Part shown: piece after piece, positions 49,055-55,659 of the stretch
Position numbering within the stretch: position 1 is the first letter of the stretch
How the letters are laid out: the number at the start of each line of letters is the position of its first letter
Assembly: GCA_001801995.1 (NCBI GenBank)
Contig: MGZB01000002.1
Coordinates: 1-64,000 of the forward strand
DNA length: 64,000 nucleotides
Reading direction: 5' to 3'
Source: Gammaproteobacteria bacterium RIFOXYD12_FULL_61_37
GTDB lineage: Bacteria; Pseudomonadota; Gammaproteobacteria; Chromatiales; Chromatiaceae
Notes under the pieces: model-generated
What the model saw: the letters and a program-made list of their open reading frames with translations, nothing else
Databases searched by the model: none
What the model was told of the DNA's origin: nothing
Program-made: the position numbers and the translations under genes

Positions 49055-50356
49055 ATGATCAGTCTCCTGTTTCGCATTGTCCTGGCCCTTCTCATTGCCG
49101 CTCCCCTGGGGGCGGCAATGGCCTCCGAGACCGCTGCCCCCATGCAGTTGATCGAAGTGGCGGGCATTCCGGTGGAGTTCATCCTCTTCGCCCTGGTGTT
49201 GCTGGGCGTGGCCCTATTCCACAACCAGACCTTCGCCGTGGCGACCACCGGCCTAGCGGTGGTCATTCTCTACAAGCTCATCTTCACCGGCTTCAAGACC
49301 GGGGCGGGCTTGGCGGGCCTCATCGGCCACCTGGGCCATGAGTGGGTCACCCTGGCCAACCTCTTCTGCCTGCTGCTGGGCTTCGCCATCCTGGCGCGGC
49401 ATTTCGAGAAGAGCCATGTCCCAGTGATTTTGCCCAAGTTTCTGCCGGACGACTGGAAGGGCGCCTTTCTCCTGCTGGTGATGATCTTCTTCATCTCCAG
49501 CTTCCTGGACAACATCGCCGCCGCCCTGATCGGCGGCGCCATGGCCCACCAGTTGTTCAAGGCCAAGGTCCACATCGGCTACCTGGCGGGGATCGTGGCG
49601 GCCTCCAACGCCGGCGGCGCCTGGAGCGTGGTCGGCGACACTACCACCACCATGATGTGGATCGCCGGCGTCACCCCTGGCCAGGTGTTTGAATGCATCA
49701 TCGCAGCCCTCATCGCCCTGTTCATCTTCGGCATCCCGGCGGCCAAGCTGCAACAGGCCTATTCGCCCATCCTCAAGAATGTCAACGAACGCACCCAGGT
49801 GAACTGGAACCGGATCTTCGTCGTGATCCTGATCCTGGTCTTCGCCATGGTGACCAATATCCTCATCAACTCCAGCTTCAAGGATATTTCCAACAGCCTG
49901 CCCTTCATCGGCATGGCGGTATGGGCGGCCATCCTCCTGTCCACTCCCCTGTGCCGCCATGACTGGGAGGTCATCCCGGAGAACCTCAAGGGGACCCTCT
50001 TCCTGCTCAGCCTGGTCACCATCGCCTCCCTGATGCCGGTGGAAAAGCTGCCGGTGGCCTCCTGGCAGACCGCCATGGGCCTGGGCTACCTCTCCGCCGT
50101 CTTCGACAACATCCCGCTGACGGCCCTGGCCCTGAAGCAGGGCGGCTATGACTGGGGCTTCCTGGCTTACGCCGTGGGCTTCGGCGGCTCCATGATCTGG
50201 TTCGGCTCCTCCGCCGGCGTCGCCCTCTCCAACATGTACCCCGAGGCCAGGTCGGTCGGTCTCTGGCTGCGCCACGGCTGGTTCGTCGCGGTGGCCTATA
50301 CGGTCAGTTTCCTGGTCATGGTGGTTTTGCTGGGCTGGCATCCGGACGGGCTGTAA
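49055..50356 (+). CDS. Ion transporter-superfamily antiporter (citrate/ArsB/NhaD type)
   Basis: A 433-aa inner-membrane protein with a signal-like first helix (ending AMA) and ten or more further segments. The repeated pattern SSFLDNIAAALIGGAMA and YLSAVFDNIPLTALAL, with DN in broken helices, and GGAWSVVGDTTTTMMW are hallmarks of the ion-transporter superfamily that includes NhaD and ArsB. A Na+/H+ antiporter or organic-anion carrier is likely. It differs clearly from the second NhaD-like gene at 52344. Confidence 0.75.
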   Translation: MISLLFRIVLALLIAAPLGAAMASETAAPMQLIEVAGIPVEFILFALVLLGVALFHNQTFAVATTGLAVVILYKLIFTGFKTGAGLAGLIGHLGHEWVTLANLFCLLLGFAILARHFEKSHVPVILPKFLPDDWKGAFLLLVMIFFISSFLDNIAAALIGGAMAHQLFKAKVHIGYLAGIVAASNAGGAWSVVGDTTTTMMWIAGVTPGQVFECIIAALIALFIFGIPAAKLQQAYSPILKNVNERTQVNWNRIFVVILILVFAMVTNILINSSFKDISNSLPFIGMAVWAAILLSTPLCRHDWEVIPENLKGTLFLLSLVTIASLMPVEKLPVASWQTAMGLGYLSAVFDNIPLTALALKQGGYDWGFLAYAVGFGGSMIWFGSSAGVALSNMYPEARSVGLWLRHGWFVAVAYTVSFLVMVVLLGWHPDGL

Positions 50357-50474
50357 TCCCAGCCGGCTACTTGAATCTCCAGTAACAATTCAGCTCAATC
50401 CGGTAATTGCCCCACCTCCCAGAGGGAGGGGGGCTGAATAGTTGCAATCCCCAGAGTACAGCCACGAGCGGGCA

Positions 50475-52193
50475 TCAGCCCTTCAATCCATGCCGGGAGC
50501 GCACCAGTTCATAGTTGCGGCCGCGCGCCCCTTCCAACACCTGATCCACGTCGTCGGACGGGGTTCCGACGATGCGCAGGGCGTGGGCGGCCAGGTTGAG
50601 GCTGCTCTCGATGGCCTCGGGATAGGCCTCGGTGGCGCCCGCCTGGAGCAGGCGGCCGCTGGCCTCCAGATCCCTGGCCCTGGCCAGCACGGGGACATGG
50701 GGATAGCCGTTGCGCAGGTGCGAAACGGCGCGCAAGGCAGCCGAACCCTGATCGACGGTGAGTACCACCAGGGACGCCCGCTCCACATGGGCCGCCGCCA
50801 GCAGATCGGGATTGCCGATGTCGCCGTAATAGACGGGAAAGCCGTCCTGGTGGCCCTTGCGCACATGGGCCGGGTTGTTGTCGAAGACGATGAAGGGGAT
50901 GCCGCTGCCGTGCAGCAGCACGGCCACCACATGCCCCACCCGCCCGTAGCCGCCGATAATGACCTTGGGCGTCACGTCCGGTTCGGCCGGTAATTGGGGT
51001 CCCAGTTCCATCGGCTTGTTGCGTTCGAGGCGCGCCGCCAGCAGGTCGCCCAGGCGGGCCATCAAGGGCGTGGCCAGCATGGTGATGGAGATCAGCCCAA
51101 CCGCCAGGACGAAGGTGGCGTCATCGATCACCCCCAGCGCCTTGGCCGTGCCCAACAGCACGAAGCCGAACTCGCCGCCCTGAGCCAGCAGGAAGGCCAC
51201 GCGCACGGCTACCGTCAAGGGAAAATCGAACGCCAGGCCCAGAACGAACAGGGCCAGCAGCTTGATCAGCAGGATCGCCACCGCTCCCTGCGCGAACAGC
51301 AGCGGCTGTTCAAACAGGGTACCCAGGTCGATGGACATGCCCACCGCAACGAAGAACAGGCTCAGCAGCAGCCCCTTGTACGGTTCCACCAGGGACTGGA
51401 TTTGCAGGCTGTAGCGGCAGTCCGACAACAGGATGCCGATCAGGAAGGCGCCGAGCGCCATGGAGAATCCGGCCTCGTGCATCAGCCAGGCAGAGAGGAA
51501 CAGCGCCAGCATCACCACCATGAAGAAGCCTTCCCGGTTGCCCTGATGTGCCAGCCGCTCCAGCAGCCAAGGCACCAGGCGGCTCCCCAGCACCCAGACC
51601 GCGAGAAACACGGCAACCGCCAGCCCGGTCTGCCGCCACAGGGGTATCTCCGTCCCCAGGGCCGCGCCCCGCTCGGACAATAGCGGCACCAGCGCCAGCA
51701 AGGGGACGATGGCCAGATCTTGCATGAGCAGCACGGCGAAACTGACCGTGCCGTGCCGGCTCGCGATCTCGCCGCGCTCCTGGAGCAACTGTACGACGAA
51801 GGCGGTGGAAGAGAGCGCCAGCGTCAGCCCCAGCAGCAGTGCCCTGGACCAATCCGGCTGCGAACCCCGCAGATAGGCAGCGATGATCAGCCCCGTCAGG
51901 ATCACTTGCAGCGACCCCAGTCCGAACACCTCCCGCCGCATGGCCCAAAGCCGGTGGGGCTTCATCTCCAGCCCGATCAGGAACAGCAGCATCACCACGC
52001 CCAGCTCGGTGAAATTGCGCACATCCTCCACATGGGGCGTCAAAATTGGCCCCGGCGAATGCGGCCCCACCACGATTCCGGCGATCAAAAGCCCCAGCAC
52101 CGAACCGAGCCCGAGATGCCGGAACACCGTGACCGCCAGTGAAGTAACGAACAGCAGCAACACCGCCGAGTAAATAAAGCTGTGGAGTTCCAT
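50475..52193 (-). CDS. CPA2-family K+ or Na+/H+ antiporter with RCK domain (KefB/YbaL-like)
   Basis: 572 aa. The first 385 residues hold about twelve membrane helices of the cation:proton antiporter-2 type (LLLFLIGLEMKPHRLW, FVVQLLQERGEIASRHG). The C-terminal part is a TrkA-N/RCK domain starting VIIGGYGRVGHVVA, which binds NAD(H) or nucleotides and gates the transporter. Likely K+ efflux or Na+ export. It is convergent with the preceding antiporter gene. Confidence 0.87.
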   Translation of the reverse strand: MELHSFIYSAVLLLFVTSLAVTVFRHLGLGSVLGLLIAGIVVGPHSPGPILTPHVEDVRNFTELGVVMLLFLIGLEMKPHRLWAMRREVFGLGSLQVILTGLIIAAYLRGSQPDWSRALLLGLTLALSSTAFVVQLLQERGEIASRHGTVSFAVLLMQDLAIVPLLALVPLLSERGAALGTEIPLWRQTGLAVAVFLAVWVLGSRLVPWLLERLAHQGNREGFFMVVMLALFLSAWLMHEAGFSMALGAFLIGILLSDCRYSLQIQSLVEPYKGLLLSLFFVAVGMSIDLGTLFEQPLLFAQGAVAILLIKLLALFVLGLAFDFPLTVAVRVAFLLAQGGEFGFVLLGTAKALGVIDDATFVLAVGLISITMLATPLMARLGDLLAARLERNKPMELGPQLPAEPDVTPKVIIGGYGRVGHVVAVLLHGSGIPFIVFDNNPAHVRKGHQDGFPVYYGDIGNPDLLAAAHVERASLVVLTVDQGSAALRAVSHLRNGYPHVPVLARARDLEASGRLLQAGATEAYPEAIESSLNLAAHALRIVGTPSDDVDQVLEGARGRNYELVRSRHGLKG

Positions 52194-52230
52194 TCTGTTT
52201 AACCAACAATTACCGTGGAAATCATCAGCC

Positions 52231-52259
52231 GTAGGGGCGGGTTTGAAACCCGCCCCTAC
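52231..52259. repeat. Perfect palindromic repeat
   Basis: GTAGGGGCGGGTTT, one base, AAACCCGCCCCTAC: a 14-bp stem. Typical dispersed intergenic palindrome; may also act as a transcript end signal between the two antiporter genes. Confidence 0.7.
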
Positions 52260-52343
52260 TTGAACGGGTAGGGTTATTAACCGAGTGGTATAGAAAGGTA
52301 GCCCAATGGGGTGGAACGCAGTGGAATCCGGCGCTGCTCCTAC

Positions 52344-53786
52344 TCACGCGAACAACCCCGCATTCAGCCACAGATGTGCCCCGATGGAGGCCGCGTAGCC
52401 CAGGGCGATGGCCGGGGTCCATTTGAGGTGGCCGAGGAAGCTGTATCGGCCGTGCGCCTGTCCCATCAGGGCCACGCCTGCGGCGGAGCCGATGGAGAGC
52501 AGAGAGCCGCCGACCCCGGCGGTGAGGGTGACCAGGAGCCACTGGCCGGTGGTCATGTCGGGCATCATGCTCAGTACCGCGAACATGACGGGGATATTGT
52601 CCACCAGGGCGGAGATCAAACCGATGGCGATATTGGCCTGGGTCGCGCCCCAGTCCACGTAAAGGGTCTGGGAGAGCAGGCTCAGGTAGCCGAGGAAGCC
52701 GAGGCCGCCGACGCAAAGCACCACGCCGTAGAAGAACAGCAGGGTATCCCACTCCACCCGCGCCAACTGGTGAAAGACATCGAAGGACGGATGCCGCTCC
52801 TCCAGAGGGATAGGGTCGCCGAAACTCTCCTCGTCGCCGCTCTTCCTGGAGGGCCGGCGGCTGACCTTCAGGTAATAGCCGAAGAATTGCAGGTAGCTGA
52901 GGCCGGTGAGCATGCCGATGACCGGCGGCAGGTGGAGGAAGTTGTGGAAGCTGACGGCGGTGGCGATGGTCAGCAGAAACAGGGCCATGATCCGGCGCGC
53001 GCCCCGGCGCATGGGAATGCTTTCCCCCGATCCCTGGGGTTGCAGTTTGGGCACGGCCCAGTGCATGAGCGCCGCCGGAACCAGCCAGTTGATGACCGAC
53101 GGCAGAAACAGGTGGAAGAAGCTCCAGAAATCGACCGGGCCGGGGTGGGTCTGGATGTTCTTCTGCCACACCATCAGGGTGGTGATGTCGCCGAAGGGGG
53201 AGAAGGCCCCGCCCGCATTGGCCGCCACCACGATATTGATGCAGGCAAGCAGCACGAACTGCCGGTTGTCGCCGCCGACGGCCAGCACCACGGCGCACAT
53301 GAGCAGGGCGGTGGTCAGATTGTCGGCCACCGGCGAGATGAAGAAGGCCAGCAGGCCGGTGATCCAGAAGAGCTGACGGAAGCCGTAGCCCTTGCGCACC
53401 AGCCATGAACGCAGGGCCTCGAAGGCCTGGCGCTCGTCCAGGGCGTTGATGTAGGCCATGGCCGAGAGCAGGAACAGCATCAACTCGGCGTATTCCAGCA
53501 GATTGTGGCGCAGGGCCTGCTCCACCTGGCCCGGCGGCAGTCCCTGTTGCCCCGCCGCGATGGCGATCAGCACCCAGATGATCCCGGCGGCCAGGATCAC
53601 CGGCTTGGACTTGCGCAGGTGGGTTGTCTCTTCCAGCATCACCAGCAGATAGGCCAGGCCGAACACGGCCAGCACGGCAGGTCCCACCCAGCCGCCCGTA
53701 AGGCCGGACGGGGCGGTTTCCGTAGCGTAAAGGCCGAAAGGGAGGCATGTCAGCAAGATCAAGGTCAGGGTGGAAGGTCGTTTCAT
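52344..53786 (-). CDS. nhaD: Na+/H+ antiporter NhaD
   Basis: 480 aa with a signal-like first helix and about twelve further membrane segments. NhaD blocks: FISPVADNLTTALLMCAVVLAVGG, NIVVAANAGGAFSPFGDITTLMVW, and SALVDNIPVMFAVLSMMPDM, with the paired Asp-Asn sites of ion binding. Works best at alkaline pH and high Na+ in characterised members. ATG 53786 (MKRPSTL) is the family-like start; the open frame continues 12 codons upstream. Confidence 0.9.
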   Translation of the reverse strand: MKRPSTLTLILLTCLPFGLYATETAPSGLTGGWVGPAVLAVFGLAYLLVMLEETTHLRKSKPVILAAGIIWVLIAIAAGQQGLPPGQVEQALRHNLLEYAELMLFLLSAMAYINALDERQAFEALRSWLVRKGYGFRQLFWITGLLAFFISPVADNLTTALLMCAVVLAVGGDNRQFVLLACINIVVAANAGGAFSPFGDITTLMVWQKNIQTHPGPVDFWSFFHLFLPSVINWLVPAALMHWAVPKLQPQGSGESIPMRRGARRIMALFLLTIATAVSFHNFLHLPPVIGMLTGLSYLQFFGYYLKVSRRPSRKSGDEESFGDPIPLEERHPSFDVFHQLARVEWDTLLFFYGVVLCVGGLGFLGYLSLLSQTLYVDWGATQANIAIGLISALVDNIPVMFAVLSMMPDMTTGQWLLVTLTAGVGGSLLSIGSAAGVALMGQAHGRYSFLGHLKWTPAIALGYAASIGAHLWLNAGLFA

Positions 53787-53851
53787 CGGTCGAAACTCTG
53801 CATCTGAGGGCCGGGGTTCCACGATTTAACCAGATCTCCGGGCCATCGGAA

Positions 53852-54001: not shown

Positions 54002-54102
54002 TCCCCTTAAGCCCCGCTGGATTGGTTGCTTTAAGAAGTCTGCTGGCCCTGTTACCGACGATCGAAGCCTCAATGGCCTTTCGATATCAGAGGAGGACTG
54101 CC

Positions 54103-55659
54103 ATGAAAAAATTGTTCCATTGGCCCGGTTTGCTGCGATGGGCGAATTCCAAAGCGCAGCGCCTTTTCGGGCTCAAGCGGTCGCCGGAACGATTCCATCC
54201 CAAAACAACCGCTGCTGCACAGCCCTTGCCAATCACCCCCTCAGCCTGTGCAACCGTGGTAATTCCCGCCCGCAATGAAGCAAAGTGCATAGCCGGAGTT
54301 GTAGCCTATGCCCTGGCAGACCCGGCAACCGCTGAAGTCATCGTGATTGATGACAGTTCCATCGACAACACCGCTGAGTTGGCGCGACGGGCGGGGGCCA
54401 AGGTGCTGACCAGCAGCATGCTGGGCAAGGGCGCCTCCATGCACGATGGCGTCGCGGCGGCGCAAGGCGGCTTGCTGGTCTATTTGGATGGCGACCTGAC
54501 GGGCCTGCGTAGCGGTATCGTCACCGATCTTTGCGGGCCGCTTCTGCGGGGGGAGGCCGACTTTGTGAAGGCATGCTTCGGCCGTGCGGGTGGCCGCGTC
54601 ACTGAACTCACAGCCAAGCCGATGTTGAAGATCTTCTTCCCCGAACTGGCGCATTTCAAACAGCCCCTCGGCGGCATTATCGCCGCGCGAAAGCCCCTGT
54701 TGCAGGCATTGATCTTTGAGGATGGCTATGGCGTGGATGTGGGTCTGATGTTGGATGCACACCTCGCCGGGGCCAGGCTGGCGGAGGTCGATATAGGCTC
54801 AATTGAGCATGACTGCCAGCCGCTGCATGATTTGACCCTGATGGCCAACGAGATCGCACGGGTCATCTTTAGCCGGGCCAAGACAGCCGGGCGTTTGCAT
54901 GTCGAGCAAGTCGCGGCCATGTACGAAACGCAACGCCAGGCAGCAGCAGGGATCGACTATATCCTGACCCGGCGGGGCGGGCGCCGGAAGCTGCTCCTTC
55001 TCGATATGGACGGGACAGTCACGTCCTCTCGCTTTGTCCTTGAATTGGCGCGTTCAACGGGGCATGAACCGGCCTTGTTGCAAATGCTGGATAACCCCGA
55101 CAGCGATGCTGCCACGCGGAGCGAACGAATCGCAAGGCTCTTTCAGTACGTTCACCGGAAACAGTTCGAGCGGGTAGCCCGCACTCTGGACATACGTCCC
55201 GGCGTCATCGAGTTTGTGAATCGGATGCAGCGAAGCGGATTCATGGTGGGCCTGGTCAGTGATAGTTATTTCATTGCGGCGGATATCGTCAGACGCCGGA
55301 TATTCGCCGATTTTGCCATGGCACATACCATCCATTTCGACAATGACGTTTGCTCTGGCCAGATCCGCATCAACCCCGCCTTTCTCGCCCCCCAGGGCCG
55401 ACGCTCACCCCCTGTTTGCAAGAGCAATGTCCTGCGCTGCTTCCTGACGGATAGAACCCCGCCGAGGGTAAATCAAACCTGGGTGGTGGGTGACAACATC
55501 AATGATCTGGCCCTGATGCGCCTTGCAGACCGGGCGTTCGCCATCGAGCCCAAATCCCCCTTGTTGACGGACGAACCGGGAATCACCCCCATCGCATCCT
55601 TCCTCGACTTGTTGACCCTGCTGCCAAGCCAGGAGCTGGTCGAGGATGCCGTTGCGTAG
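54103..55659 (+). CDS. gpgS-gpgP-like fusion: Fused glucosyl-3-phosphoglycerate synthase / HAD phosphatase
   Basis: 518 aa with two domains. Residues 48-265 are a GT-A glycosyltransferase like GpgS (family GT81): VVIPARNEAKCI, the metal site LDGDL at 128-132, and the family block GGRVTELTAKPMLKIFFPELAHFKQPLGG. Residues 296-510 are a SerB-like HAD phosphatase: nucleophile motif DMDGT at 301-305, and VVGDNINDLAL as the last motif. GpgS joins glucose from an NDP-glucose to 3-phosphoglycerate, and a phosphatase then gives glucosylglycerate, a compatible solute. One chain could do both steps. ATG 54103 is chosen for the AGGAGG 6-7 nt upstream. Activity is predicted, not shown. Confidence 0.8.
   Translation: MKKLFHWPGLLRWANSKAQRLFGLKRSPERFHPKTTAAAQPLPITPSACATVVIPARNEAKCIAGVVAYALADPATAEVIVIDDSSIDNTAELARRAGAKVLTSSMLGKGASMHDGVAAAQGGLLVYLDGDLTGLRSGIVTDLCGPLLRGEADFVKACFGRAGGRVTELTAKPMLKIFFPELAHFKQPLGGIIAARKPLLQALIFEDGYGVDVGLMLDAHLAGARLAEVDIGSIEHDCQPLHDLTLMANEIARVIFSRAKTAGRLHVEQVAAMYETQRQAAAGIDYILTRRGGRRKLLLLDMDGTVTSSRFVLELARSTGHEPALLQMLDNPDSDAATRSERIARLFQYVHRKQFERVARTLDIRPGVIEFVNRMQRSGFMVGLVSDSYFIAADIVRRRIFADFAMAHTIHFDNDVCSGQIRINPAFLAPQGRRSPPVCKSNVLRCFLTDRTPPRVNQTWVVGDNINDLALMRLADRAFAIEPKSPLLTDEPGITPIASFLDLLTLLPSQELVEDAVA

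Follow-up and report, generated by a model that had tools for sequence, protein, structure and literature searches.

A GpgS-like glycosyltransferase joined to a HAD-IB phosphatase in one conserved chain, most likely a bifunctional hexosylglycerate synthase

The DNA analyzed here—a stretch of 64,000 nucleotides, in the following called the window—encodes a protein in which a GT81-like glycosyltransferase is followed by a SerB-like HAD phosphatase within one chain (Table 1). This fusion is real and conserved. Judged from its sequence, the protein would work like MgsD without belonging to the MgsD family, and it is most likely a bifunctional hexosylglycerate synthase. A sequence-only reading had already proposed this order of domains and an intact DMDGT motif in the phosphatase. 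Pfam, PDB matches, folds, and alignment bear out the former, and the motif is indeed present as D301-T305.

The gene, its domains, and the distribution of the fusion

The reading frame stays open for 518 codons before its stop. An in-frame TTG at 54022 was considered as an upstream start and found less likely than the ATG at 54103, which is preferred because it follows AGGAGG with a spacer of six bases and agrees with the start of close homologues. Pfam places Glycos_transf_2 at residues 51-180 (E 8e-15) and HAD at residues 299-473 (E 5.8e-9). The AlphaFold2 model used throughout, with the window protein and six relatives as input, reaches a mean pLDDT of 77.7 and a pTM of 0.62; the other four models are far poorer (48.7-58.3). 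The N-terminal extension is present in most proteobacterial members and absent from L032, L033, L035, and most planctomycete members. Its basic helix, as modeled at residues 8-21, may conceivably bind a membrane.

Table 1. Features of the fused gene and its left-hand neighbors (positions in the window)
Feature	Position	Strand	Basis
NhaD-like transporter	49055..50356	+	72.7 bits vs NhaD cut-off 577; no Pfam match at 1e-5
CPA2-type cation/H+ antiporter with TrkA-N domain	50475..52193	-	Pfam
NhaD-type Na+/H+ antiporter, divergent neighbor	52344..53822	-	CitMHS (Pfam); NhaD_1 615 bits vs cut-off 80 (NCBIfam)
AGGAGG, probable ribosome-binding site	54091..54096	+	read directly from sequence
Fused glycosyltransferase-phosphatase gene, P0001	54103..55659	+	518 aa; ORF, Pfam, NCBIfam, fold comparison
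N-terminal extension, residues 1-46	54103..54240	+	predicted basic helix 8-21 (low confidence) and low-confidence linker
GT-A glycosyltransferase domain, about residues 47-264	54241..54894	+	Pfam, PDB match, alignment, fold comparison
Helical linker between domains, about residues 265-293	54895..54981	+	AlphaFold2 model
HAD-IB (SerB-like) phosphatase domain, about residues 294-508	54982..55626	+	Pfam, PDB match, fold, NCBIfam

The search for fused homologues that had been suggested yielded 24 further loci with the fusion or a HAD remnant. Hence, the fusion is no accident of sequencing or assembly, and a chance fusion or a frameshift is ruled out. These 24 relatives share at least 43% identity with the window protein and carry a HAD domain or its remnant after the transferase, while solo proteins reach at most 33%. 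The 25 members comprise the window protein (1), the loci of a scan of named genomes (6), L016 (1), the family of the Limnohabitans genome (12, with the Limnohabitans locus not counted again), and the class of the Gemmatales genome (5), and thus span proteobacteria and planctomycetes. The named-genome scan, which detects close relatives only, found its six loci in Limnohabitans, Rhodoferax, an Alcaligenaceae bacterium, a Burkholderiales bacterium, an unplaced Pseudomonadota genome—where L016 is a second copy—and a Gemmatales bacterium.

Around the window the fusion is rare. Its own genome holds a single copy, a second match being weak (E 9e-6) and confined to the transferase part. The own genome is also the only carrier among 210 genomes of the order (E up to 1e-30), 369 of the class (E up to 1e-20; five others have transferase matches only), and 388 of the phylum (E up to 1e-60). 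The Limnohabitans genome's family shows it in 12 of 399 genomes, one with two copies, and the Gemmatales genome's class in 6 of 297, with 11 more that bear a solo GpgS-like protein; the Limnohabitans and Gemmatales genomes are themselves counted here. All genome counts are lower bounds, since few candidates were scored per genome. Six peptide patterns found no relative on viral contigs. A plasmid search gave 21 matching records. No match spans more than 80% of the query, and the best 20 of the 21 all lie in the transferase part with at most 47% coverage.

Two catalytic domains and the product they would make

The transferase had been read as GpgS-like, and this stands: the best NCBIfam family is NF010496 (glucosyl-3-phosphoglycerate synthase; residues 51-271, E 1.1e-56), and its solved sequence matches are MpgS and GpgS, with E down to 5.6e-30. 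The best single one is the mannosyl enzyme RxMpgS. In a fold comparison of the predicted model, GpgS comes out on top (residues 44-283, Z 26.8, rmsd 2.2, 227 aligned), and MpgS ties with it within 1 Z unit. A GpgS proper, on the other hand, is not supported. The cut-off of NF010496 at 262 bits is missed by the whole protein (192.2) and by the GT domain alone (192.3), and the residues, loops, and tree discussed below also set the protein apart.

In M. tuberculosis GpgS, Glu54 holds the ribose and Asp136 the metal, Asp134, Lys114, Tyr229, and Met269 form an ion pair and the sugar pocket, and Val186 and Thr187 bind the acceptor carboxylate, whereas Ser81 excludes GDP (PMC2581804, in excerpt). Residue equivalences rest on an alignment that includes solo proteins and the GpgS of M. 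hassiacum, and the numbering is that of the paper. The window protein presents a D129-G-D131 metal motif, K109, the acceptor-carboxylate motif R165-V166-T167, Y209, D212, and M247. All 25 members keep E59, K109, D129, D131, V166, T167, Y209, and M247, as well as the full R165-V166-T167 motif. With equivalents of Glu54, Lys114, Val186-Thr187, Tyr229, and Met269 and the DxD motif, 25 of 25 belong to GT81 in the wide sense. Three GpgS residues are uniformly exchanged: Glu232, Ser81, and Arg261 are Asp, Asp, and Gln in every member (Asp212, Asp84, and Gln239 of the window protein). The His258 position bears His in 23 members and Asn in two. Given these changes, the residues do not single out a donor base or sugar.

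Two stretches of GpgS are absent from the alignment, about 8 residues before GKG and about 11 before GGRVTEL. The latter is taken to be the acceptor-side loop of GpgS, thought to add contacts to 3-phosphoglycerate. In the tree, the 25 fused rows lie outside a branch that unites GpgS, MpgS, and 15 solo proteins (17 rows; support 98/100; length 1.69 changes per column). The tree program warns of long branches, which weaken this placement. One solo row, L019, is a far outlier that disturbs the tree. The fused label requires two changes on this tree and one change in 25% of 200 bootstrap trees, a count with which L019 interferes. From its sequence, we regard the transferase as GpgS-like rather than GpgS. 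Because of the score below the cut-off, the long branch, the lost loop, and the Asp at Ser81, we infer rather than read off both glucose over mannose and 3-phosphoglycerate as the acceptor.

The phosphatase half belongs at the edge of HAD-IB as defined by TIGR01488 (cut-off 45 bits), with the HAD part alone just over it (46.2) and the whole protein just under (43.9); the cut-off of NCBIfam SerB, 144 bits, is far from reached (49.9). Its nearest solved matches are phosphoserine phosphatases (E 2.9e-7 for the whole protein, 1.9e-7 for the HAD part), and the modeled fold of residues 293-508 can be superposed on one with Z 24.9 and rmsd 2.2 over 202 aligned residues. The identity is only about 20%. 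The catalytic set of the window protein is D301, D303, S386, K440, D464, and D468, and it is intact—with Ser or Thr at position 386—in 21 of the 25 members.

Where this domain departs from SerB is in the residues that read the substrate. In phosphoserine phosphatase, Glu20 binds the amino group and Arg56 the carboxylate (PMC6321591, in excerpt). All 21 members whose catalytic set is intact carry Arg at the Glu20 position, and the same 21 keep R339 in the cap; at the places of R310 and R339 of the window protein, phosphoserine phosphatase reads its substrate with other residues. Position 342, which aligns with Arg56, is variable and is Arg in eight of 25 members, the window protein among them. 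The SerB pair of Glu20 and Arg56 is thus lost on one side and not conserved across members on the other, and an ordinary SerB is rejected on these residues. An activity on phosphoserine only, which would have spoken against the sequence-only reading, looks unlikely, because the amino-reading Glu20 has given way to Arg in every one of the 21 intact members. The exchange would remove the reader of the amine and add a positive charge, which might fit a glycosylated phosphoglycerate; together with R339 of the cap, this Arg appears to suit an anionic, amine-free substrate.

The relatives of the synthase half make a phosphorylated product, and a phosphatase fused behind it suggests that its substrate is that very product. 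On balance, we lean toward a bifunctional hexosylglycerate synthase that would most likely make glucosylglycerate, an anionic solute for ion or osmotic balance. In a retaining reaction, the GT81-like domain would attach a hexose to the 2-OH of 3-phosphoglycerate; this hexose is most likely glucose, donated by UDP- or ADP-glucose. The HAD-IB domain would then take the phosphate off via an aspartyl-phosphate on D301 to give glucosylglycerate. The intermediate might be handed over between the domains; like this hand-over, the donor, acceptor, product, and physiological role are what we infer. As a compatible solute with negative charge, the product would balance K+ or Na+. Glucosylglycerate is known as a counterion of K+ and Na+ when nitrogen is limiting, and it is described as accumulating at high salinity (PMC11009771, in excerpt).

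In four members—L016, L034, L035, and L036—catalytic residues or much of the HAD domain are missing, with the checked transferase residues unchanged. L034 and L035 are sisters in the tree (100/94), so that these four cases correspond to about three losses. Genome KLAP50 holds two copies, L006 intact and L016 decayed, and the genome of L034 holds two decayed ones, L034 and L036. Decay of the phosphatase only implies that the transferase can persist without a phosphatase of its own, and a dead phosphatase in four of 25 members that dephosphorylation by the same chain is not always needed. The four members and the pair of intact and decayed copies in one genome make the division of labor between the domains testable. 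Beside both sister loci of L034 and L035 lies a gene of the PEP-mutase family (L063 5131-5946 and L064 7365-8156).

Three other readings have to be weighed against glucosylglycerate. The same architecture might use mannose or another hexose, as a mannosylglycerate synthase-phosphatase with an evolutionary history separate from that of MgsD. RxMpgS as the best single PDB sequence match speaks for it, as do the loss of the GDP-blocking Ser81 to Asp84 in all 25 members and an Asp in place of Glu232, which is also described in excerpt for the GDP-mannose enzyme MgS. Yet the best curated family is the glucosyl enzyme and GpgS heads the fold matches, though with MpgS within 1 Z unit; and D84, which we take to be an ordinary GT2-type residue, does not single out GDP. 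We consider this reading unlikely. A different acceptor, be it a further phosphorylated hydroxy acid or the free D-glycerate that MgS uses, would lead to a different glycoside, or to one made without the phosphatase. The missing acceptor-side stretch and the distance of the transferase from GpgS in the tree leave room for it, the same carboxylate motif serves free glycerate in MgS (PMC2581804, in excerpt), and four members persist with a dead phosphatase. The carboxylate motif is nevertheless kept throughout, and the intact phosphatase of 21 of the 25 members makes a nonphosphorylated acceptor unlikely for these; as a whole, the reading seems to us rather improbable.

Finally, the HAD domain might be a mere passenger of the chain, a phosphatase of general use or one for phosphoserine, and leave the transferase product untouched; we hold this to be highly improbable. 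Its nearest solved relatives are phosphoserine phosphatases, but the low identity to them, the uniform Arg for Glu20 in intact members, and the varying Arg56 position argue against such a role. We thus retain the synthase-phosphatase with glucosylglycerate as the preferred product.

Genomic neighborhood and origin of the gene

Within the window at 49055-53822, just left of the fused gene, a CPA2 antiporter lies between two NhaD-type proteins. The divergent neighbor, well above the NhaD_1 cut-off, stays below that of NhaD TIGR00775 (439.6 vs 577 bits), and at E up to 1e-10 this genome has no Na_H_Exchanger match besides the CPA2 gene. A Pfam scan of 50 neighbor proteins, 30 hand-picked and 20 filling gaps, shows that the adjacent called gene encodes a membrane transporter in 16 of 25 loci, that is, in the window and at 15 of the 24 relatives. 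Its kind varies: an antiporter, exchanger, or Na+/Pi carrier adjoins in seven loci (window, L003, L006, L008, L060, L065, L070), an SSF symporter in four (L054, L055, L057, L058), CorA in two (L061, L062), and VIT1, a chromate transporter, and a CLC channel in one each (L005, L056, L059). Nine loci have no adjoining transporter (L004, L007, L063, L064, L066-L069, L071), L071 being scanned on one side only near a contig end. The bias is proteobacterial, with 15 of 19 proteobacterial loci against one of six planctomycete loci.

Relative to genome-wide densities in the 17 genomes that hold 19 loci, 4 of 19 loci have Na_H_Exchanger genes within 7 kb where 0.24 are expected (Poisson P 1.2e-4), and 3 of 19 have Na_H_antiport_3 genes where 0.026 are expected (P 2.9e-6), in tests that are post hoc and treat related loci as independent. 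An anionic solute that balances K+ or Na+ would explain the frequent adjacency to cation antiporters and exchangers. There is no operon conserved across the family, and no promoter-like or terminator-like site stands clearly above shuffles.

Some loci show arrangements of their own. In the Burkholderiales loci L054, L055, L057, and L058, the fused gene is directly followed by the SSF symporter and a Gfo/Idh/MocA oxidoreductase—a cassette for which uptake or modification of the same solute is possible. L060, together with its left side (G942:C20, about 115-126 kb), places the fused gene within a run of ion transporters: Na_H_antiport_3, a P-type cation ATPase, a Na/Ca exchanger, a Na/Pi cotransporter, and a CPA-type antiporter. 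A similar MarR-type protein lies near the fused gene in two otherwise unlike loci (L059 3745-4260 and L060 7401-8024) and is a candidate regulator.

The fused gene was likely transferred into this genome, since the closest kin of its product in the named-genome scan belongs to Burkholderiales (73% identity). Its G+C content is 59.5% vs 64.7% and 67.1% for its two neighbors. In a genome of the same genus (G209), the block that runs to the right from rsmI is conserved (78% DNA identity), and this conservation ends where rsmI ends; the fused gene is missing there, another gene takes its place, and the NhaD relative lies on another contig. A further genome of the window's family (G002) bears two NhaD genes a few kb from rsmI, on the far side of the block and without the fused gene. 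Hence, NhaD genes occur near the rsmI block regardless of the fusion.

A wider picture can be drawn, and we offer it tentatively, as one whose full extent we doubt. The fusion might be a second, independent one-protein route to an anionic sugar-glycerate, in which the acceptor pocket of a GT81-like transferase has been trimmed and two arginines have retuned a HAD-IB phosphatase. Found in proteobacteria and planctomycetes, it would move between genomes and, in proteobacteria, come to lie recurrently beside unrelated Na+/H+ and other ion transporters, where it would supply the organic counter-anion within a cassette for cation homeostasis. Possibly, the sugar or acceptor is a new one, and where the phosphatase is dead, the end product might be the phosphorylated glycoside. 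If the bifunctional reading is true, one enzyme suffices for glucosylglycerate or a close relative, the solute would extend to freshwater Burkholderiales such as Limnohabitans, and a one-gene route would aid solute production.

Comparison with known systems

With GpgS, e.g., of Mycobacterium hassiacum, the transferase shares the GT-A fold, the DxD, GGRVTEL, PLxG, and YGV(E/D) motifs, and the Met/Tyr pocket residues. GpgS differs in being free-standing, in its two extra loops, in its residues Ser81, Arg261, and Glu232, and in its position apart in the tree. The phosphatase shares with SerB and phosphoserine phosphatase the fold with a helical cap and motifs I-IV; these, however, keep Glu20 and Arg56, and the HAD part of the fusion scores far under the SerB cut-off. 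The pair of GpgS and GpgP, found in marine picocyanobacteria and others, presumably makes the same product, glucosylglycerate, from two genes. In picocyanobacteria, this pathway is described as marine or brackish and as absent from freshwater isolates (PMC9361551, in excerpt), whereas the fusion occurs in Limnohabitans, a genus described as freshwater.

Synthase-phosphatase fusions for glucosylglycerol and sucrose make products other than a hexosylglycerate, and their domain families presumably differ from those here. In some Marinobacter, glucosylglycerol is made by a synthase and a sugar-phosphate phosphatase in one chain (PMC10873239, in excerpt), and so is sucrose by SpsA (PMC9361551, in excerpt); with these precedents, the principle of fusion is familiar among compatible solutes. 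Among the papers covered on glucosylglycerate and mannosylglycerate enzymes (fused or bifunctional), on fresh water, and on planctomycetes, none describes the present fusion as far as titles, abstract openings, and excerpts show.

The closest counterpart in function would be MgsD. Its domains are a GT55 synthase and a HAD-IIB phosphatase, and GT55 (Osmo_MPGsynth) defines it; in the window protein, Osmo_MPGsynth is not among the eight Pfam families listed at E up to 1. MgsD of Dehalococcoides mccartyi bears synthase and phosphatase in one chain and makes a hexosylglycerate, namely mannosylglycerate, from 3-phosphoglycerate (PMC8490865, in excerpt), the same two-step logic that we propose here. 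Since its domains are of other families than those of MgsD and the Osmo_MPGsynth match is absent, the fusion looks like an independent, convergent invention—and, if true, the same solution would have been found twice with unrelated parts.
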